Shown in pieces: positions 3,140 through 11,931 of a DNA stretch of 14,948 nt. The stretch's first letter is position 1. Every line of letters starts with the position of its first letter. The notes beneath the pieces are model-generated. The model did no database searches. It saw nothing but the letters and a program-made list of their open reading frames with translations, and was not told where the DNA came from. The stretch spans positions 1-14,948 of the forward strand of contig NYZA01000241.1 of the NCBI GenBank assembly GCA_002686955.1, read 5' to 3'. The position numbers and the translations under genes are program-made. The DNA is from Gemmatimonadota bacterium (GTDB lineage Bacteria; GCA-2686955).

Positions 3140-4753
3140 ATGCATCGTGGCCACCCACTCTCCGCGCTTTCAATTCTGGTGGCGGTCCCCGTGCTGGCCC
3201 AGGGCGTTCTCGAGACCGCCACGCTGGACCGCTCCGAGGAGTTCGTCGAGCTGATCGCCGGCGAATTCGCCGGCATCGACGGTCTGCCGATCGACGCGCT
3301 CACCTTCTACTCCTGGAGAGGCGCTTCCTTCTCGCCGATCCCCCACCAGGTCGACGAGGTCGGCCCGAACGGCGGGGATTTCGGCACCGACGAGGATCCC
3401 GGCAATTTCGATCCGAACGACGAGATCGTTTTCGTTCTAGAAGACGCCGGCGACAGGGTCTACACCGATGTATGGGCGCCGAACGGCGATCCGAGCCGCT
3501 GGGAGATCGAGGTCGAAGATCCGCTGAACCCTGGTGAGAAGAGCTGGGTCTACGTTTTCACCGGAGGGGACGTCCCCGGGTCGTCGGCCGACTACGTCCA
3601 GGTGCTGAACAACAATCCTTTGCAGCTCAGCACCACTTACTACGAAGAGGGTTTCAGGGAGGATGGACCCGCGACCCAGACCGACATGATCGTTTATCCC
3701 CAGCGGGGAAACGGGCAGGATTCGATGGACCGCCTGAAGCTGCGCACGAAGCTTTTCAGCTTCAGCAGCTGGGACACCGAGGAAGACAGTGAGATCGATC
3801 CGGAGCGCTGGAACATCAAGGACGGGACGATCCGGATCATCAACAGTTTCTGGGTCTCATTGGGAGAGCTGCTCGATCTGACCCACGCGACCGTCACTTT
3901 CTATCCGCAGATGACCACGGTCGACAACGATGTGAACCAGATCACCTGGCCGGAGCTGAGAGCGATCGTTTGGCTGGAGGATCTGAACCAAGCGGCCGGC
4001 TCTTCGGGCGGCTTCTGGTACCACGACAACCGTGGCCCCGATCCCGAGGCCGACGTCACTTTTTCCGACCAGGTCGACGGTGGCGGAGAGCAAGATACAG
4101 CGGATGATCCCGCCCTCTTCTACGAATGGGCGAGCGCGGACTACGGACGGATGATCTTCATTCAGTCGGTCCAGCCGATCCTCGATCAGGGCGGCAATGG
4201 GAGTGCCCACGCCTACTACTGCGATGGGTGTACAACCGCCCCCTGGCCCGACACGGGAGATATGGAGAAGTGGGGCGAGTTCGGCACATGGATCAAGAAG
4301 ATCCCGGTTTCCACCTTCTCGATTCTGGCCTGGAATTTCCGCCTCGACGGCGCGAACCCAGAGACCAGCATCGGTGGTGAGTACGGTCGCCGTTACCTCA
4401 ACCATGTGAGCAAGTCGATCACGACGCAGCTCAGCACCTCGGTAGAGGGCGACGCGCCGAGCGCGCCGGCGCTGGGTGTGGCACTGGCCCAAAACGCTCC
4501 CAATCCCTTCAATCCCAGAACCCAGATCGTATTCACGACGGCGGAGGCGGTTTCGGATGCGAAGCTCGCCGTCTTCGACCACAGCGGGCGTCTGGTTCGC
4601 ACCCTGGTGAACGGTGCGATCGAGGCCGGTGCTCATTCGGTGACCTGGGAGGGGCGCGATGAGGCGGGGTTGTCGGTGCCTTCGGGGATCTATCTCTACC
4701 GTCTCGAGGCGGGGAATCAGGTTCTGACGCGGCGGATGGCGCTGGTCAAGTAG
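3140..4753 (+). CDS. Secreted protein with C-terminal FlgD-Ig/type IX-like sorting domain
   Basis: 537 aa. Residues 1-20 form a signal peptide (hydrophobic SILVAVPVLA, cleavage before QG). The N-terminal part has PIPHQVDEV and NDEIVFVLEDAGDR, a pattern seen in large secreted proteins of FCB candidate phyla, some resembling polysaccharide-lyase accessory regions; I cannot name the domain. The body is acidic and aromatic, as in an extracellular beta-rich protein. Residues 449-537 are a typical FlgD-Ig/T9SS-like C-terminal domain: QNAPNPFNP, LAVFDHSGRLVRTL, HSVTWEGRDEAG, PSGIYLYRLEAG and a basic RRMALVK end. In relatives this domain directs export or surface attachment, so a surface or secreted location is likely. 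The only two cysteines of the mature protein are C361 and C364, in CDGC. It ends 23 bp before the SMR-like gene and may head the same transcript. Confidence 0.88.
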   Translation: MHRGHPLSALSILVAVPVLAQGVLETATLDRSEEFVELIAGEFAGIDGLPIDALTFYSWRGASFSPIPHQVDEVGPNGGDFGTDEDPGNFDPNDEIVFVLEDAGDRVYTDVWAPNGDPSRWEIEVEDPLNPGEKSWVYVFTGGDVPGSSADYVQVLNNNPLQLSTTYYEEGFREDGPATQTDMIVYPQRGNGQDSMDRLKLRTKLFSFSSWDTEEDSEIDPERWNIKDGTIRIINSFWVSLGELLDLTHATVTFYPQMTTVDNDVNQITWPELRAIVWLEDLNQAAGSSGGFWYHDNRGPDPEADVTFSDQVDGGGEQDTADDPALFYEWASADYGRMIFIQSVQPILDQGGNGSAHAYYCDGCTTAPWPDTGDMEKWGEFGTWIKKIPVSTFSILAWNFRLDGANPETSIGGEYGRRYLNHVSKSITTQLSTSVEGDAPSAPALGVALAQNAPNPFNPRTQIVFTTAEAVSDAKLAVFDHSGRLVRTLVNGAIEAGAHSVTWEGRDEAGLSVPSGIYLYRLEAGNQVLTRRMALVK

Positions 4754-4776: not shown

Positions 4777-5151
4777 ATGACCCTTCGCGGGGCGATCCTC
4801 GTCGCGGCAGCGGCTGCCTTGACAGCGGGGGCAAATGTTCTGCTGCGTGCCGGGATCCTCCGCTTCGGCGAGCTCTCGTTGACGCTTCGCGAGCTACCGC
4901 CGGCGATGGTCGCCTTTGCGCGGCAGCCGCTCTTTGTTGCCGGCACTTTCTTGTATGCGGCGGCGGCGATCGTATGGTTCAGCGCCATATCGATCGAGGA
5001 GCTGAGCACGAGCTATCCGGTGCTGGTGGGGATGACCTTCGTGCTCGTCACCGCCTGCGCCGTTCCGATATTCGGCGAGAGTTTCTCGGTTCCCAAGGGC
5101 CTGGGCATTGTCGTGATCCTCTTGGGGGTCGTATTGGTGGCACGCGCATGA
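4777..5151 (+). CDS. SMR/EamA-type four-helix membrane protein, ArnE/ArnF-like flippase candidate
   Basis: 124 aa with four predicted membrane segments at about 5-25, 50-70, 78-98 and 107-123. Length and layout fit the small multidrug resistance superfamily. The loop-helix pattern (RQPLFVAGTFLYAAAAIVWF, then ELSTSYPVLVGMTFVLV, then a GES loop before the last helix) resembles ArnE/ArnF more than EmrE. The acidic residue essential in helix 1 of drug-exporting SMR proteins (Glu14 of EmrE) is absent: there is no Asp or Glu before residue 32. This argues against drug export and for moving a lipid-linked sugar across the inner membrane, as ArnE/ArnF do with undecaprenyl-phosphate-aminoarabinose. 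The function is inferred. AGGA at 4765-4768 precedes the start. The stop overlaps the next ATG (ATGA at 5148-5151), so translation is probably coupled. Confidence 0.85.
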   Translation: MTLRGAILVAAAAALTAGANVLLRAGILRFGELSLTLRELPPAMVAFARQPLFVAGTFLYAAAAIVWFSAISIEELSTSYPVLVGMTFVLVTACAVPIFGESFSVPKGLGIVVILLGVVLVARA

Positions 5152-6188
5152 CGATCAAGAGAGACGAGTCCATGATCGGCGTCGGTATCGTGGGCTACGG
5201 GTATTGGGGTCCGAAGGTCGCGCGAAATTTCGCGGAGCTCGATGGCTGCACCGTCGTGGGCATATGCGACTTCGACGACGAACGGCTGGGTCGAGCGGGC
5301 AGGACCCACCCGGGCGCCTTGATGACCCACGATTATGGAAAGCTCCTCGATCGTCCGGAGCTCGACGCGATCGCCATCGCGACACCGGTCTCCACGCACT
5401 TCGATCTGGCGATGAAGGCGCTGCGCGCGGGGAAACATGTCTGGGTGGAGAAGCCGCTCACCGATGCCCGAGATCAAGCCGAAACGCTGATCGAAACCGC
5501 CGACCGAAAGGGTGTCGCTCTGCTCGTGGACCACACTTTCGTCTATACAGGAGCGGTGCGGAAGATCAAGGAGCTGGTCTCCGGAGGTGAGATCGGTGAG
5601 ATCCGTTTCTACGATTCCGTGCGCGTCAATCTGGGGCTCTTCCAGCACGATGTGGATGTGCTCTGGGATCTCGCGGTTCACGACCTTTCGATCATGGGCT
5701 TCATTCTGGACAATGCCCCGGTGGCGGTATCGGCGACCGGCATGGGTCATGTTCCCGGGCAGATGGAAAACGTCGGCTACCTGACCCTCTTCTTCGAAGA
5801 CGACATGATCGCCCATATACACGCCAACTGGCTGGCCCCCGTGAAGATCCGGCGAACTCTGATCAGCGGAACGAAGAGGATGATTGTGTACGATGATTTG
5901 GAACCGAGCGAGAAGATCAAGATCTACGACAAAGGCATCATTCTCGAGAACGACAAGGATTCCTTCTACTCCACGATCGCCGGCTATAGAACCGGCGATG
6001 TCTGGAGCCCTCAGATCGATCTCACCGAGGCGCTCCACCGCGAAGCGCTCCATTTCTTGCAGTGCATCCGAGAGGGGAGCCGACCGCTGACCGACGGGGA
6101 GGCCGGTCTCTACGTTGTGCGCGTGCTGGAAGCCGCCAGACGTTCGATGGACTCGCGCGGCATGCCGGTTGAAATCTCGAATGGATGA
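5148..6188 (+). CDS. Gfo/Idh/MocA family NAD(P)-dependent sugar oxidoreductase
   Basis: 346 aa from the ATG that overlaps the previous stop. The N-terminal Rossmann domain carries GIVGYGYWGPKVARNF (residues 13-28), then VVGICDFDDER and the family's VEKPLTD (K102, the usual substrate-contact lysine). The C-terminal domain has NLGLFQHDVDVLWDLAVHDL, with H178 at the catalytic-histidine position. It probably oxidises or reduces a hydroxyl of a nucleotide sugar, typically making the 3-keto sugar used by the neighbouring PLP aminotransferase, as WbpB does before WbpE in Pseudomonas. A second possible start is ATG 5172 (MIGVGIVGYG), which matches the usual family N-terminus and follows a GAGAGACGAG stretch. 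The open frame upstream of 5148 lies inside the SMR gene and is not part of this protein. The exact substrate cannot be read from sequence. Confidence 0.92.
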   Translation: MTIKRDESMIGVGIVGYGYWGPKVARNFAELDGCTVVGICDFDDERLGRAGRTHPGALMTHDYGKLLDRPELDAIAIATPVSTHFDLAMKALRAGKHVWVEKPLTDARDQAETLIETADRKGVALLVDHTFVYTGAVRKIKELVSGGEIGEIRFYDSVRVNLGLFQHDVDVLWDLAVHDLSIMGFILDNAPVAVSATGMGHVPGQMENVGYLTLFFEDDMIAHIHANWLAPVKIRRTLISGTKRMIVYDDLEPSEKIKIYDKGIILENDKDSFYSTIAGYRTGDVWSPQIDLTEALHREALHFLQCIREGSRPLTDGEAGLYVVRVLEAARRSMDSRGMPVEISNG

Positions 6189-6195
6189 GCGCTCA

Positions 6196-7326
6196 ATGAT
6201 CCCCTTTCTCGACCTCAAGGCCCAGTACGACGCGATTCGTTCCGAAATCCAGGCCGCGATCGACGAGACGGTCGAGAGCTCCCGCTTCATTCTCGGTCCT
6301 CAGGTCGAGGCGTTCGAGACTGAATTCGCGCGCTACTGCCGGTCGGATCACGCCGTGGGCGTGAGCTCCGGCACCAGCGCGCTTCAGCTCGCCTTGATGG
6401 CGGCCGGAGTAGGCCCGGGCGACGAGGTCGTCACGGTGTCGTGCACCTTCGTGGCCACCGTGGCCGCGATCTACCATGTGGGTGCGCAACCCGTGCTCGT
6501 GGATGTCGATCCCCGCTCTCTCACGCTCGATCCCGCGCGGCTCGAAGACGCGATCAGCGATCGAACGCGCGCCGTGGTACCGGTTCATCTGCACGGCCAG
6601 ATGGCCGACATGGATCCGATCATGGAGATCGCACGGCGCAAGCGCATCGCCGTGATCGAAGATGCCGCGCAGGCCCACGGCGCCGAGTATCGCGGGCGGC
6701 GAGCGGGATCGATCGGCGATCTGGGCTGTTTCAGCTTCTACCCCGGGAAGAATCTTGGCGCCTACGGTGAAGCCGGTGCCGTGGTGACCGGGCGAGCCGA
6801 CCTCGCCGATACACTACGCGTCCTACGGGATCAGGGGCAGGACCGCAAGTACCACCATATTTTGCCGGGCTTCAATTTCCGCATGGACGGGATTCAAGGA
6901 GCGATTCTGCGCGTGAAACTGAGACATATCGAGGAATGGACCGAGGCGCGGCGGCGGCACGCGGCCCTCTATGGCGCGTTGCTCGAGAGTAGCCCTGTCG
7001 CCGTCCCGGTCGAAGTGGACGGAAACCGTCACGTTTATCATGTGTACGGAGTGAGAGTGTCCCATCGCGACCGTGTACAAGCCCTTCTCGATGACGCGAG
7101 CGTCTGCACCGGCATCCACTATCCGGTCCCGGTCCATTTGCAGCCGGCATTCGCGGAGCTGGGCATGCATCAAGGCGATCTGCCGGTCACCGAAGATGCG
7201 GCGGACTCGCTTCTCTCCTTGCCGATGTTCCCCGAGATGAGAGATGAGCAGATCCGGAGCGTCTACGAGGTTTTGGATCGATCGGTGGCTCGCGCCGGAG
7301 AGAAGGCGGGTAGAGGTGACGAGTAG
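6196..7326 (+). CDS. DegT/DnrJ/EryC1/StrS PLP-dependent sugar aminotransferase (first copy)
   Basis: 376 aa, full length for the family. It begins with the characteristic MIPFLDLKAQY. Visible landmarks are SSGTSALQLAL (PLP phosphate contact), VSCTFVATVAAI, IEDAAQAHGA (D156 contacts the PLP ring, Q159 is the common residue) and FSFYPGKNLGAYGEAG, with K185 the Schiff-base lysine. It should transfer an amino group from glutamate to a keto nucleotide sugar, cytoplasmically. Directly following the Gfo/Idh dehydrogenase, the pair matches WbpB/WbpE logic (oxidation then amination, usually at C3). An alternative ATG at 6181 overlaps the upstream gene by 8 bases and adds five residues (MDERS); I prefer 6196 because the family N-terminus starts there and GGATGAG lies just upstream. 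The stop lies inside the next gene's start region. Confidence 0.93.
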   Translation: MIPFLDLKAQYDAIRSEIQAAIDETVESSRFILGPQVEAFETEFARYCRSDHAVGVSSGTSALQLALMAAGVGPGDEVVTVSCTFVATVAAIYHVGAQPVLVDVDPRSLTLDPARLEDAISDRTRAVVPVHLHGQMADMDPIMEIARRKRIAVIEDAAQAHGAEYRGRRAGSIGDLGCFSFYPGKNLGAYGEAGAVVTGRADLADTLRVLRDQGQDRKYHHILPGFNFRMDGIQGAILRVKLRHIEEWTEARRRHAALYGALLESSPVAVPVEVDGNRHVYHVYGVRVSHRDRVQALLDDASVCTGIHYPVPVHLQPAFAELGMHQGDLPVTEDAADSLLSLPMFPEMRDEQIRSVYEVLDRSVARAGEKAGRGDE

Positions 7327-8314
7327 CTCCTCGCAACGCGTGCTGATCACAGGAGGAGCGGGCCTCATCGGATCTCATATCGCCGAAGGCATCGCACAGG
7401 GTTGGGCAGAATCGAAGGTTTCCGAGATCGTCGTCCTGGACAATTTCGTTCGGGGACGCCGGGAGAATCTCCGTTCCGCGGTTGAGAACGCGCGGGTCAC
7501 TATCGTCGAAGGTGATATTCGGGACCGCTCGCTCCTCGGCGAGCTCGTGGACGGCATCGACATCATTTTTCATCAAGCCGCGATTCGAATCACACAATGC
7601 GCGGAGGAGCCGAGACTCGCGACGGAGGTGATGATCGACGGCACCTACAATGTTCTCGAAGCGGCGGTGGAGAAGAAGGTCGGAAAGATCGTCGCTGCAT
7701 CGTCGGCTTCGGTCTACGGAATGGCGGAGATCTTTCCGACTACGGAAAGCCACCATCCCTACGACAATCGCACCCTGTACGGCGCCGCGAAGTGCTTCAA
7801 CGAAGGGTTGCTCCGGAGCTTCAACGAGATGTTCGGTCTGGACCATGTGGCGCTCCGCTATTTCAATGTGTACGGTCCGAGGATGGACATTTACGGTGCG
7901 TACACGGAAGTGTTGATCCGTTGGATGGAGCGGATCGAGAACGGCCAAGCGCCCCTCATTTTCGGCGATGGCGAGCAGACGATGGATTTCGTCTACGTGG
8001 AGGATATCGCCCGGGCGAATCTACTCGCTGCTTGGGCCGACGTGAGCGACCGCGTCTACAACGTGGGGTACGGCCAAGAAGTGTCGCTGAACGAGCTCGC
8101 CACCGCCTTGACGCGGGTGATGGGCTCGGATCTGCGGCCTGAATATCGCGATGAACGAAAGGTCAACCCGGTGCCACGTCGCTTGGCCGACACCGCGGCC
8201 GCGGAGCGCGACCTGGGATTCCGGGCCGCCGTGGGACTCGACGAAGGGCTCACCCGATTAGTAGATTGGTGGCGCTCGGAGCGAGAAGTCGAGAGAGACG
8301 GCGGAGCGGAATGA
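7316..8314 (+). CDS. NAD-dependent epimerase/dehydratase (extended SDR)
   Basis: 332 aa from a GTG start. The Rossmann motif GGAGLIGSH sits at 13-21, DNFVRGRREN follows the second strand, VEGDIRD at 64-70, the ASSASVYG active-site serine region near 128-135, and the catalytic YGAAK with Y155 and K159. RYFNVYGPRM, and GDGEQTMDFVYVEDIARA at 218-235, are typical of the UDP-glucose 4-epimerase/WbpP-like group. It probably epimerises or dehydrates a nucleotide sugar in the same pathway as the flanking aminotransferases. An AGAAGG site at 7301-7306 with a 9-base spacer selects GTG 7316, which overlaps the previous stop by 11 bases. A longer frame from 7244 lies inside the upstream gene and lacks support. 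Whether it is a 4-epimerase, 4,6-dehydratase or other enzyme is not decidable by eye. Confidence 0.92.
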   Translation: MTSSSSQRVLITGGAGLIGSHIAEGIAQGWAESKVSEIVVLDNFVRGRRENLRSAVENARVTIVEGDIRDRSLLGELVDGIDIIFHQAAIRITQCAEEPRLATEVMIDGTYNVLEAAVEKKVGKIVAASSASVYGMAEIFPTTESHHPYDNRTLYGAAKCFNEGLLRSFNEMFGLDHVALRYFNVYGPRMDIYGAYTEVLIRWMERIENGQAPLIFGDGEQTMDFVYVEDIARANLLAAWADVSDRVYNVGYGQEVSLNELATALTRVMGSDLRPEYRDERKVNPVPRRLADTAAAERDLGFRAAVGLDEGLTRLVDWWRSEREVERDGGAE

Positions 8315-9480
8315 CGGAAACCGATGGCCGGAAGACGATCCCGATCGCCCGTCCGTGGATAGGAGAGGAAGAGATCGAGGCGGTGTCCCGCGTTCTTCGC
8401 TCGGGGTGGATTACGCAGGGGCCGGAGGTCGCGAAGCTGGAGCAGGAGTTCGCTCTCGCAATCGGCGCCGATCATGCCTGTGCCGTCTCGAACTGCACCA
8501 CGGCGCTACACCTGGCCCTTCTCGCGCTGGAGGTCGGTCCCGGCGATGAGGTAATCACGGTGAGCCATTCGTTCATCGCCACGGCGAATACGGTTCGAAT
8601 GTGCGGCGCCACGCCGATATTCGTCGACGTAGAGCCGGCGACCTTCAATATCGATCCCGAGCGGTTCGAAGAGGCGCTGACCGACCGCACGAAAGCGATA
8701 CTCTGTGTGCATCAGATGGGGATGCCCTGCGATCTGGGAGCGATTCTCCGATTCAGTCGGCGACACTCTCTCGGTGTGATCGAAGATGCCGCTTGCGCAA
8801 TCGGAAGTGAGGTTCAGGTAGAAGAGAGATGGGAACGTATCGGGAAGCCTCACGGGGATCTCGCCTGTTTTTCGTTTCATCCGCGCAAGGTCGTAACGGC
8901 GGGAGAAGGCGGCATGATCACATCGTCTAGTGGCAAGCTGGACGATGAGATCCGCCTTCTTCGGCACCAGGGGATGAGCATCTCCGACGCCGTACGGCAC
9001 GAGTCGGCATCGGTATTGGTCGAGTCGTATCCGGTCTTGGGGTACAATTACAGGTTGACCGACATCCAAGCGGCCGTCGCTCGAGTGCAGCTCGGGCGTC
9101 TACCGGAGATCGTGGAGCAACGCCGGCGGCTCGGCGCGCTCTACGCCGCCGGCCTCGATCGGGTGCCGGAGGTAAGAGCCCCTCATGAGGCGGATTGGGC
9201 AAGGAGCAACTGGCAGAGCTACTGCGTCCGTCTGGCCGGCGATTTGAAGCAAGAGAGAGTGATGCAGTTCCTTCTGGATCGCGGGATATCCACGCGTCGT
9301 GGGATCATGTGCGCGCATCGTGAAGATCCGTACCGATCTCCGCCCCCACGGCACACCCTGACCGAATCGGAACGGGCGCAGGACCGATGCATCCTCTTGC
9401 CCTTGTACCAAGAGATGAGTGAGGGTGAGATCGAGAGGGTCGTTGACGCTCTGGCTGAGGCGGTCGGTCATTCGCGGTAG
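8311..9480 (+). CDS. DegT/DnrJ/EryC1/StrS PLP-dependent sugar aminotransferase (second copy)
   Basis: 389 aa. It starts at an ATG overlapping the epimerase stop (ATGA) with GGAG at 8303-8306. IPIARPWIGEEEIEAV and SGWITQGPEV are typical openings. Then come VSNCTTALHLAL, TVSHSFIATANTVRM, IEDAACAIGSE (D159, with Cys where the first copy has Gln) and ACFSFHPRKVVTAGEGGM, with K193 the PLP lysine. Fold and catalytic residues are complete, so it should be active. It differs clearly from the first copy, so the two probably act on different keto-sugars or positions and are not a recent duplication. Together with the epimerase between them this suggests a sugar aminated twice, or two amino sugars made by one operon; that is inference. 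The 3' end overlaps the glycosyltransferase start by tens of bases. Confidence 0.92.
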   Translation: MTETDGRKTIPIARPWIGEEEIEAVSRVLRSGWITQGPEVAKLEQEFALAIGADHACAVSNCTTALHLALLALEVGPGDEVITVSHSFIATANTVRMCGATPIFVDVEPATFNIDPERFEEALTDRTKAILCVHQMGMPCDLGAILRFSRRHSLGVIEDAACAIGSEVQVEERWERIGKPHGDLACFSFHPRKVVTAGEGGMITSSSGKLDDEIRLLRHQGMSISDAVRHESASVLVESYPVLGYNYRLTDIQAAVARVQLGRLPEIVEQRRRLGALYAAGLDRVPEVRAPHEADWARSNWQSYCVRLAGDLKQERVMQFLLDRGISTRRGIMCAHREDPYRSPPPRHTLTESERAQDRCILLPLYQEMSEGEIERVVDALAEAVGHSR

Positions 9481-10966
9481 AACCGCTCTGTTGGCGCTGG
9501 GAGCGCTGGCCCTGATTCTACGCCTTTTCGACATAGCGGGCGAGAGTGTGTGGCTCGATGAAGCGTCGGTGGTGACTGAGATCCAACGGAGCAGCTTTGC
9601 GGAGATGAGGGATGCCTCGCGCATCACTTTTCCTGGATCGCCCCCACTCTATCACTACGGCATGTATGGCTGGGGCAATCTGGTCGGTGTCTCCGAGCTC
9701 GCGTTGCGCCTGCCTTCGGCGCTCTTTGGAACGGTGGCTGTGCTATTGGCGGCCTGGTTGCTTCGGAGCGGGGGGGCTCCAACCGCCGTCGCGGTGCTGG
9801 CTCCTCTCGCCATGGCGCTCAACGCCACACATATTGAATACTCTCAGGAGGCGCGCTGCTACGCCCTCTTCGTCGCCCTGGCTACGTGGTCTTCTCTGGC
9901 CTATTTGAGGCTGGGCGAGCGGGGACGAGCCAAGCACTCCATTCCTCTCCTTTACATTGTCGCGACCAGCTCGCTGCTCTACACGCATATCTACGCATTT
10001 TTCGTGTTGGGGGCGCAGTGGTTCGTGCATGCGGTAGACGGGGAAAGCCGTCGTCGATTCGCCTGGCGCCGATGGCTCGGACTGCAGATCATCATTGCCC
10101 TTCTCTACGTTCCGTGGGGTCGAACGATGGCGGCGCAAGTGGCGCTGGAGTTCGAGCCGGAAGGTGGCCACACATTTCTCGATCCGCCGAACCTGGGCAC
10201 GATCCCGCACATCTTGAAGCAGTTGAGCGGGGGTGATCTTTGGGCGGATGGATGGATCGCATTCGGCCTGCTTTGTGCCGGCGTAGCTCTTGCCGCCTGG
10301 ACCTGGATTCGAGACGAGAGGGAGTCGCGACGGAGCGGGAAGCCGACCTCGGCGCTACGATTACAGCGCTATCTTTTTGCATGGCTCATCTTCATCATCG
10401 GCGCGCCTACTCTCGTCTCAATCACGATTACGCCGATCCTTGGAGATGTTCGTTACGTTCTCCCGGCCATCGTGCCCTTCGTATCGCTGGGAATCTGGGG
10501 GATTATCAGACTCCCGGGGCGCGCGGGAACGGCTTTGAGCCTTGCGGTGTTGGCGGCGACGGCAGCTTCGTTGCCCCGCTACTACGGCGAATCGCAGCGG
10601 GAGCCGTGGCGGGAAGTCGGGCGTCTTCTGGAGCTCAATGCCGAGCCGGAGGAGGCGCTCCTTCTGGACGCGCCCTGGATCTCTCAGCCGATTGTGTATT
10701 ACTTCAAGGGACCGAATCGGTTGATAGGGCTCGAGCGAACGAAACGAGCCGATCGTTTGGACGCGAGTTGGGCCGCGGCCCGTGCCGAGGTCGAGCCGGA
10801 GCGGCCGATCTGGTTGGTTCTCGCCTTCGATCTGGGAACGGGGAGGGAGTACTTGGAGAGGATCCTGTGCGAGCGCAGGATCGATCTGCAGTGGCATCTG
10901 CAATCGATCGATCTCTACCGTTTCGCTCCCGTCGAGGCGAGCCCCCCGGTCGCGCCACTGCATTAG
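9419..10966 (+). CDS. GT39/ArnT-like GT-C membrane glycosyltransferase
   Basis: About 515 aa, with many hydrophobic segments in residues 20-390 and a soluble C-terminal portion of about 125 aa. First-loop SVWLDEASVV (D47, E48) is the acidic catalytic site of the family. Further landmarks are PGSPPLYHYGMYGWGNLVG, ALRLPSALFG, the diagnostic IEYSQEARCYAL, and RYVLPAIVPF before the last helices. The family moves a sugar from a polyprenyl-phosphate carrier to a lipid, glycan or protein on the outer face of the inner membrane. With the ArnE/F-like flippase and aminotransferases of the same operon, an amino-sugar donor is plausible; the acceptor is unknown. The start is uncertain: GTG 9419 and GTG 9425 overlap the previous gene by about 60 bases, and TTG 9443 overlaps by 38. 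All keep the first helix. The gene ends the packed block; 98 bases follow. Confidence 0.88.
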   Translation: MRVRSRGSLTLWLRRSVIRGRTALLALGALALILRLFDIAGESVWLDEASVVTEIQRSSFAEMRDASRITFPGSPPLYHYGMYGWGNLVGVSELALRLPSALFGTVAVLLAAWLLRSGGAPTAVAVLAPLAMALNATHIEYSQEARCYALFVALATWSSLAYLRLGERGRAKHSIPLLYIVATSSLLYTHIYAFFVLGAQWFVHAVDGESRRRFAWRRWLGLQIIIALLYVPWGRTMAAQVALEFEPEGGHTFLDPPNLGTIPHILKQLSGGDLWADGWIAFGLLCAGVALAAWTWIRDERESRRSGKPTSALRLQRYLFAWLIFIIGAPTLVSITITPILGDVRYVLPAIVPFVSLGIWGIIRLPGRAGTALSLAVLAATAASLPRYYGESQREPWREVGRLLELNAEPEEALLLDAPWISQPIVYYFKGPNRLIGLERTKRADRLDASWAAARAEVEPERPIWLVLAFDLGTGREYLERILCERRIDLQWHLQSIDLYRFAPVEASPPVAPLH

Positions 10967-11064: not shown

Positions 11065-11931
11065 ATGAGCGGGAGTAGCCCTCCCGACAAAGTGATCTCA
11101 CTCACCGAAGCGATCGCGGAGATCCGCTCCGGCGATCGCGTCGCGTTGGGGGGCGTCCAGATGTCCCGGCGGCCCTTCGGTGCGGTGCGGCAGCTCTTGC
11201 TGGGAGAGGTCGTCGGTCTCGAGATCATCACCTACTCGGTGTGCATCGACACCGATGTATTGCTGGCCGATCGGCGTGCGTCGAGCCTGCGGTACGTGGC
11301 CCCACGAAAGACCACTCTGGGGCCGCCCCCGGCGTTCGCGGACGCATTGCGCACCCACTCCATTCAGATCGTCCCGGAGACCGGAGCGTCGCTCGGCGGT
11401 GGGCTCCGAGCGGCTCTGGCCAAGGTCGCGTTCTTCCCGATTCGTCATGCCGATATGGGAGATGTCGGCACGGAGCGGGATGATCTGGTCGTGATCGAGT
11501 GCCCGTACAGCGGAGTCCCTTTGGTGGCCGTTCCGCCGATTCGCCCCGATGTGGCGTTGTTGCACGTGCAGGCCGCCGATCGACACGGCAATCTGCGCAT
11601 CGACACATCGGCGGGCCTCGACCAGGAAATGGCGCTCTCGGCCGGAAAGACCTTCGCGACGGCGGAGACGATTGTCGATGACCTCGAGGGAGGTGGGCTC
11701 GTGATCTCGGGCCGGCACGTGGATGCCGTCGTGGAGCTGCCGTACGGCGCCTTTCCCGCGGCCTGTTTGCCGAGCTACAAATGGGACCTCGGCTACACGC
11801 TGGCGTACTACGACGCGGTCAGAGAGGGGCAATTCGATCTCTTCCGCGAGAGCCTCGCCGTTCGTTCCTACGACCAATTCCTAGAAGCCAGTCGCAGCCG
11901 CAGCCAAGAGCAGTCCCCCTCCGGGGCCTGA
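11065..11931 (+). CDS. CoA-transferase family I alpha subunit (GctA/IpdA-like), without an adjacent beta subunit
   Basis: 288 aa. The opening (VISLTEAIAEIRSGDRVALGG) and the following RRPFGAVRQLL match the alpha subunit of family I CoA transferases (glutaconate CoA-transferase, the IpdA of steroid-ring degradation, acyl-CoA:acetate transferases). VALLHVQAADRHGNLRI at 164-180 is the conserved AD-x-x-GN region, and GGLVISGRHVDAVVELPYGAFPAA fits the usual C-terminal part. In this family the catalytic glutamate sits on the beta subunit. None follows here: the next gene is a cell-wall amidase. The partner may be encoded elsewhere, or this protein may be a divergent family member with another role. 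Substrate unknown. The ribosome site is GGAGA at 11056. It ends 57 bases before the amidase start. Confidence 0.82.
   Translation: MSGSSPPDKVISLTEAIAEIRSGDRVALGGVQMSRRPFGAVRQLLLGEVVGLEIITYSVCIDTDVLLADRRASSLRYVAPRKTTLGPPPAFADALRTHSIQIVPETGASLGGGLRAALAKVAFFPIRHADMGDVGTERDDLVVIECPYSGVPLVAVPPIRPDVALLHVQAADRHGNLRIDTSAGLDQEMALSAGKTFATAETIVDDLEGGGLVISGRHVDAVVELPYGAFPAACLPSYKWDLGYTLAYYDAVREGQFDLFRESLAVRSYDQFLEASRSRSQEQSPSGA

Follow-up and report, generated by a model that had tools for sequence, protein, structure and literature searches.

What does a tightly packed, six-gene operon on contig NYZA01000241.1 of a Gemmatimonadota bacterium (assembly GCA_002686955.1) make, and where does its product go? 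The window analysed here is that whole contig (C241; 14,948 nt), part of a 4.28 Mb genome that is 84.5% complete. Six open reading frames (ORFs) on one strand span positions 4777-10966 and encode, in order, an SMR-family protein, a Gfo/Idh dehydrogenase, a DegT aminotransferase (DegT1), a short-chain dehydrogenase/reductase (SDR), a second DegT aminotransferase (DegT2) and a GT-C glycosyltransferase. On balance, we lean towards the view that this operon represents most of a three-component system for extracytoplasmic glycosylation that resembles Arn but uses a different donor sugar. Its genes are the following:

4777..5151, + strand: SMR-family four-helix protein of the lipid (ArnE/F) type (NCBIfam ArnF, 53 bits), proposed flippase of a polyprenyl-phosphate-linked sugar.
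5148..6188, + strand: Gfo/Idh/MocA oxidoreductase, probable nucleoside diphosphate (NDP)-sugar 3-dehydrogenase (PF01408; NF040723).
6181..7326, + strand: DegT1, aminotransferase assigned to the 3-aminotransferase (DesV/QdtB/WbpE) class (PDB matches; alternative ATG at 6196).
7316..8314, + strand: SDR, apparently of the epimerase type (PF01370; motifs).
8311..9480, + strand: DegT2, aminotransferase assigned to the 4-aminotransferase (perosamine synthetase/ArnB/PseC) class (PDB and NCBIfam matches).
9419..10966, + strand: GT-C glycosyltransferase, predicted GT-C_A fold (ArnT/Pmt/OST; AlphaFold and Foldseek), start uncertain (GTG at 9419 or 9425).

The six genes are as the first-pass annotation of this DNA had described them, and all five junctions overlap, in order by 4, 8, 11, 4 and up to 62 nt, the last value varying with the start codon chosen for the GT-C gene. 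Pfam and NCBIfam also agreed with the earlier assignment of the four central genes (Gfo/Idh, DegT1, SDR and DegT2, together referred to below as the cassette). The Gfo/Idh protein matched PF01408 (6.6e-24) and carries an EKP motif at residue 101 and a DxxxH motif at 174. Its best family was the UDP-N-acetylglucosamine (UDP-GlcNAc) 3-dehydrogenase NF040723 (174 bits, under the cut-off of 450), and its match to WlbA (3q2k) was distant (1.4e-10). It appears to lie nearer the UDP-GlcNAc 3-dehydrogenase family than WbpB/WlbA, and is probably an NDP-sugar 3-dehydrogenase. The best PDB match of DegT1 was 7b0d (407 bits), for which a literature search found no source paper; DesV (357 bits), QdtB (346 bits) and WbpE (304 bits) scored well above ArnB (179 bits). 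With the pyridoxal phosphate (PLP)-lysine motif SFYPGK present at residue 185, DegT1 is classed by sequence as a WbpE-class 3-aminotransferase. The WbpB/WbpE-type pair proposed at first was therefore upheld for the class of the aminotransferase but not for the dehydrogenase.

The SDR matched PF01370 (1.2e-49) and, in NCBIfam, GalE (152 bits) and LegB (142 bits). It contains the motifs GGAGLIG at residue 13, SASVYG at 130 and YGAAK at 155. At the SASVYG position, 4,6-dehydratases carry Asp-Glu and ArnA-type decarboxylases carry Glu; both activities were ruled out for this SDR, in which neither is found, and the lack of acidic residues there points to an enzyme of the epimerase type. DegT2 showed the converse preference to DegT1, its PDB matches to perosamine synthetase (227 bits) and ArnB (226 bits) exceeding those to DesV (163 bits) and WbpE (141 bits). 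In NCBIfam it scored 316 bits with PseC and 300 bits with ArnB, not reaching the ArnB equivalog cut-off of 631, and it was 36% identical to E. coli ArnB (227 bits). The PLP-lysine motif SFHPRK is present at 188. DegT2 can be assigned from these matches to the ArnB/PseC class of 4-aminotransferases, a statement of class and not of orthology with ArnB.

No Pfam family matched the SMR protein. In NCBIfam its best family was ArnF (53 bits, 4e-14), ahead of ArnE (23 bits) and EbrA (20 bits), the ArnF and ArnE scores falling below the family cut-offs of 99 and 92. The first acidic residue of the protein is E32, so it has no EmrE-type central glutamate in helix 1; the switch tyrosine (Y80) is kept, and is invariant with ArnE, ArnF and the SMR protein of a deltaproteobacterial locus described below (L062). 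Absence of the helix-1 central glutamate and presence of the switch tyrosine distinguish the lipid subtype of SMR proteins (PMC9574504), to which this protein would thus belong. A PDB sequence search returned weak EmrE matches alone (E 0.12 to 0.64). Matches to the SMR protein were found in 53 of 386 diverse genomes, the source genome counted in, and an arnC-like gene lay within 1.5 kb of SMR relatives in nine of 29 loci, compared with one of 29 GT-C control loci. By sequence the protein groups with lipid flippases, ArnF being the best named family, in keeping with the ArnE/F-like character first given to it; a placement among drug exporters was not borne out. From its genetic context, it is proposed to flip a polyprenyl-linked sugar.

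The GT-C protein gave weak matches to PMT_2 and Agl23 in Pfam and NCBIfam, and a weak profile match to E. coli ArnT with hhalign (probability 32%). When its AlphaFold model (pLDDT 85, pTM 0.88) was submitted to Foldseek, ArnT (5f15) was retrieved first (E 1.2e-8). The VIA Z scores were 29.6 for Pmt4, 27.3 for OST and 27.1 for ArnT, with 355-435 residues aligned; since the three are tied within ~2-3 Z, they define the fold class but do not discriminate between donor classes. The model places the protein in the GT-C_A fold class (ArnT/Pmt/OST), and the ArnT-like nature claimed for it earlier is upheld at the level of the fold. A D47-E48 motif was near-invariant among 23 homologues. Weak GT-C relatives were present in 24 of 98 genomes, and a tblastn comparison of the window proteins with 29 other GT-C loci detected a sugar gene alongside in just one (a 28% SDR in L033).

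The distribution of the cassette was followed through its SDR. When 84,980 species genomes were scanned, about 45 loci in many phyla emerged, with SDRs 45-70% identical to that of the window, some of them partial; the SDR was also present in six of 385 further broadly sampled genomes, and was not found in the second genome of the phylum. Thirty-one loci had enough flanking sequence to be treated as intact (the genome sets overlap, and some of these loci are possibly duplicates). Gfo/Idh and DegT2 genes were each present in 30 of them and DegT1 in 25, a hexapeptide acyltransferase occurred in 30, and formyl-, methyl-, GNAT or radical-SAM genes occurred in eight. Across the 31 loci the window-referenced bit scores of the four enzymes were rank-correlated (0.50-0.74), indicating that they travel together. 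The genomes involved include Acidobacteriota, Nitrospira, deltaproteobacterial, Bacteroidota and Actinomycetota members, among others. The cassette is patchy in its occurrence and horizontally spread; a literature search found no description of it.

At the cut-offs used, UDP-sugar 6-dehydrogenase, SMR and GT-C genes were each absent from all 31 intact loci. The first-pass annotation had suggested looking for a nucleotide-sugar dehydrogenase nearby; a UDP-sugar 6-dehydrogenase is thus not part of the cassette and a uronic acid product is not favoured, yet three 6-dehydrogenases are encoded elsewhere in the source genome. The six-gene order did not prove to be conserved in other genomes either. 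Linkage to an SMR gene was seen once more, in L062 (Deltaproteobacteria), where it lies directly 5′ of Gfo/Idh and is followed by an acyltransferase, DegT1, SDR and DegT2; this locus, on a short contig, was left out of the 31. The GT-C gene was found in this position nowhere else, although L081 and L059 have GT-C relatives several kb away from the cassette. A 442-residue fusion that seemed to lie upstream of the SMR gene in L062 was ruled out as a low-complexity frame artefact.

Several variants of the cassette were observed. A large protein with a PF20254 domain (N,N-dimethylformamidase beta-like C-terminal domain) adjoins it in 10 loci, the domain assignment having been tested on the L040 member (L040:4030-6525). 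A Poribacteria contig carries a sulfatase gene (L051:3129-4811) within the cassette, in the DegT1/SDR interval. Three loci (L043, L044 and L045) form a distinct variant, in which SDR and DegT2 are separated by a B12-binding radical SAM gene, and DegT1 and SDR by a gene for a methyltransferase.

A link between the cassette and a lipid carrier was found outside the window. In six loci (L042, L047, L051, L069, L072 and L076), which come from Acidobacteriota, Hydrogenedentota, Poribacteria and Bacteroidota, an ArnC/GtrB-like GT2 gene lies within 140 bp of the SDR or DegT2 gene, on the same strand. The L051 GT2 matched the polyprenyl-phosphate transferase GtrB sll0501 at 2.6e-77 and ArnC at 3e-46. 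This recurrent abutment supports a lipid-phosphate-linked product. The source genome encodes five good ArnC-like GT2 candidates, all unlinked to the operon. One is a fusion: a 662-residue ORF on the - strand of contig C159 (L172; 2883-4871) joins an ArnC/GtrB-like GT2 half to an ArnA-type formyltransferase half. An ArnD-like deformylase relative, with 35% identity and an NCBIfam score of 148 bits against a cut-off of 382, is encoded on contig C137 (L177; 1282-2445). The reported absence of ArnA, ArnC and ArnD thus holds for the operon but not for the genome, in which relatives of the ArnA formyltransferase, ArnC and ArnD are present and are candidates to act on this sugar.

These distant genes have neighbours of their own. 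Beside the C159 fusion are a methyltransferase ORF and a carbamoyltransferase-like (NodU-type) ORF, the latter read by eye, and a B12-radical-SAM-like gene lies ~3 kb from the ArnD-like gene of C137. For the ArnC-like gene at G000:C152:8045-8962, the best match runs across one in-frame TGA.

In the favoured scheme, Gfo/Idh and DegT1 would aminate C3 of an NDP-sugar in the cytoplasm, probably one derived from UDP-GlcNAc, and SDR and DegT2 would act at C4 to give an NDP-(3,4-di)amino sugar, possibly a 2,3,4-triamino sugar. An ArnC/GtrB-like GT2 encoded in trans, perhaps one of the five candidates, would attach the sugar to polyprenyl phosphate; the lipid-linked sugar would then be flipped across the inner membrane by the SMR protein, and the GT-C enzyme would hand the sugar on to an acceptor in the periplasm, for example lipid A, lipopolysaccharide (LPS), another glycan or a protein. 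The lipid-carrier-linked amino sugar foreseen at first agrees with the lipid-type SMR protein, the ArnT-fold GT-C enzyme, the 3-/4-amino cassette and the GT2 genes at six loci, while the donor class and the sugar itself are deduced. A wider proposal is offered tentatively, and we would not expect it to hold in full: that the product of the widespread mobile cassette is a polyprenyl-phosphate-linked 3,4-diamino (or 2,3,4-triamino) sugar that is attached outside the inner membrane in many unrelated phyla, and that here, paired with a dedicated SMR protein and GT-C enzyme, its free amino groups provide a cationic envelope modification parallel to Arn. If true, this would represent a second route, outside Arn, by which envelope amino sugars and possibly positive charge are acquired, and would assign a function to a cassette occurring in many phyla.

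Several observations weigh against the favoured scheme. The polyprenyl-phosphate transferase expected nearby, which abuts the cassette in six loci elsewhere, was found neither in the operon nor on contig C241. Linkage to SMR recurs only in L062, and no other cassette has GT-C in the same position. The nearest relative of the SMR protein (G295, 52%) sits outside any sugar cluster. The window is without the hexapeptide acyltransferase seen in nearly all intact loci, and one weak relative of it was detected genome-wide. The GT-C fold comparison cannot separate monophosphate from pyrophosphate donors. Finally, the genome is incomplete and its phylum is represented by two genomes, which limits the scope for judging conservation in close relatives.

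Two genes flank the operon in the window, the first of which bears on one of the rival explanations:

3140..4753, + strand: secreted protein with a C-terminal FlgD-Ig/type IX secretion system (T9SS) type A sorting domain (PF13860, 51 bits; TIGR04183, 31.3 bits, cut-off 23).

This gene ends 23 nt 5′ of the SMR gene and may or may not be co-transcribed with the operon. The genome encodes homologues of SprA (523 bits; G000:C17:38438-42898), PorU and PorV, the last near the C159 fusion, and these fit the FCB-type lineage first suggested. The PorU-like sortase lies on contig C29 (L103; 1330-19943) beside a glycan cluster with a Wzz/kinase gene, three SDRs, an ArnC-like GT2 and a GT9. On the other side of the operon, 98 nt past the GT-C gene, positions 11065-11931 encode a lone CoA-transferase-type subunit (PF01144, 57 bits), 48 nt ahead of an AMIN/Amidase_3 gene; no partner subunit was seen nearby.

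The main rival to the favoured scheme has the cassette providing an NDP-sugar for an ordinary polysaccharide or O-antigen pathway; SMR and GT-C would then be no more than co-transcribed neighbours that serve another lipid-linked sugar. In many other loci the cassette does lie within export-polysaccharide clusters that encode Wzx, Wza-type proteins or a PF02397 phosphoglycosyl transferase but neither SMR nor GT-C, and linkage to these last two is rare. We nevertheless regard this explanation as unlikely, given that the cassette overlaps its neighbours at either end, that L062 has an independent SMR-Gfo/Idh junction and that ArnC/GtrB-like genes adjoin the cassette in six loci. It is improbable, and more so, that T9SS cargo receives its linking sugar (or an A-LPS-like glycan) from the operon in the Wbp/Vim manner. 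The linking sugar of P. gingivalis requires WbpB and WbpE (PMC7468200), no adjacent Gfo/Idh-DegT 3-amino pair was found besides that of the window, a T9SS sorting domain is encoded just upstream and the secretion and sortase homologues are present. However, the operon is without a WbpA-, WbpD-, VimA- or VimE-like gene, such C-terminal domains are common in the genome (about 18 in addition to PorU), actinobacteria carry the same cassette (L054-L056 and L079) and the PorU-like gene belongs to another glycan cluster.

The combination of an SMR protein with an ArnT-fold enzyme is typical of lipid A modification. Gfo/Idh and DegT1 might be supposed to catalyse reactions like those of GnnA and GnnB, to yield UDP-GlcNAc3N for amide-linked lipid A, with the rest of the operon modifying lipid A. 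The best dehydrogenase family, UDP-GlcNAc 3-dehydrogenase, does correspond to the GnnA-type reaction, but the same enzymes are present in actinobacteria, which have no lipid A, and they are tied to SDR-DegT2 and not to lpx genes, making this explanation very improbable. Hardly credible at all is a drug or guanidinium exporter with no sugar role: the weak EmrE matches of the SMR protein are countered by a helix 1 without acidic residues, by an ArnF score far over that of EbrA and by relatives located near arnC-like genes.

The Arn-like glycosylation scheme can finally be set beside known systems. With the E. coli arnBCADTEF pathway for 4-amino-4-deoxy-L-arabinose (L-Ara4N), the window operon shares an ArnB-class 4-aminotransferase, an ArnE/F-type SMR protein and an ArnT-fold GT-C enzyme in a single operon. 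It differs in being without ArnA, ArnC and ArnD, in adding a 3-dehydrogenase, a 3-aminotransferase and an epimerase-type SDR, and in having one SMR protein in place of two, a different gene order and a GT-C sequence far under family level. The Wbp pathway (WbpB/WbpE/WbpD, for UDP-GlcNAc3NAcA) likewise has a Gfo/Idh gene adjoining a 3-amino-class DegT gene, and most relatives of the cassette include a WbpD-type acyltransferase. In the window, however, the dehydrogenase is not near WbpB/WlbA, WbpA and WbpD are missing, and an SDR and a 4-aminotransferase come next. By the tests made, the operon belongs to neither the Arn nor the Wbp pathway.

Three-component extracytoplasmic glycosylation systems (GtrA/GtrB/GT-C), of which the pentofuranose systems are examples (PMC11127046), resemble the operon in combining a small flippase with a GT-C enzyme, and polyprenyl-phosphate transferases adjoin the same cassette elsewhere. 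The operon holds two of the three parts, with the polyprenyl-phosphate transferase outside it, and differs also in including dedicated amino-sugar synthesis. The O-antigen of Psychrobacter cryohalolentis contains 2,3,4-triacetamido-2,3,4-trideoxy-L-arabinose, made by a pathway described as unknown (PMC8040287). This sugar, a precedent at the level of structure, bears amino groups at C2, C3 and C4, the pattern expected if 3- and 4-aminotransferases worked on UDP-GlcNAc.

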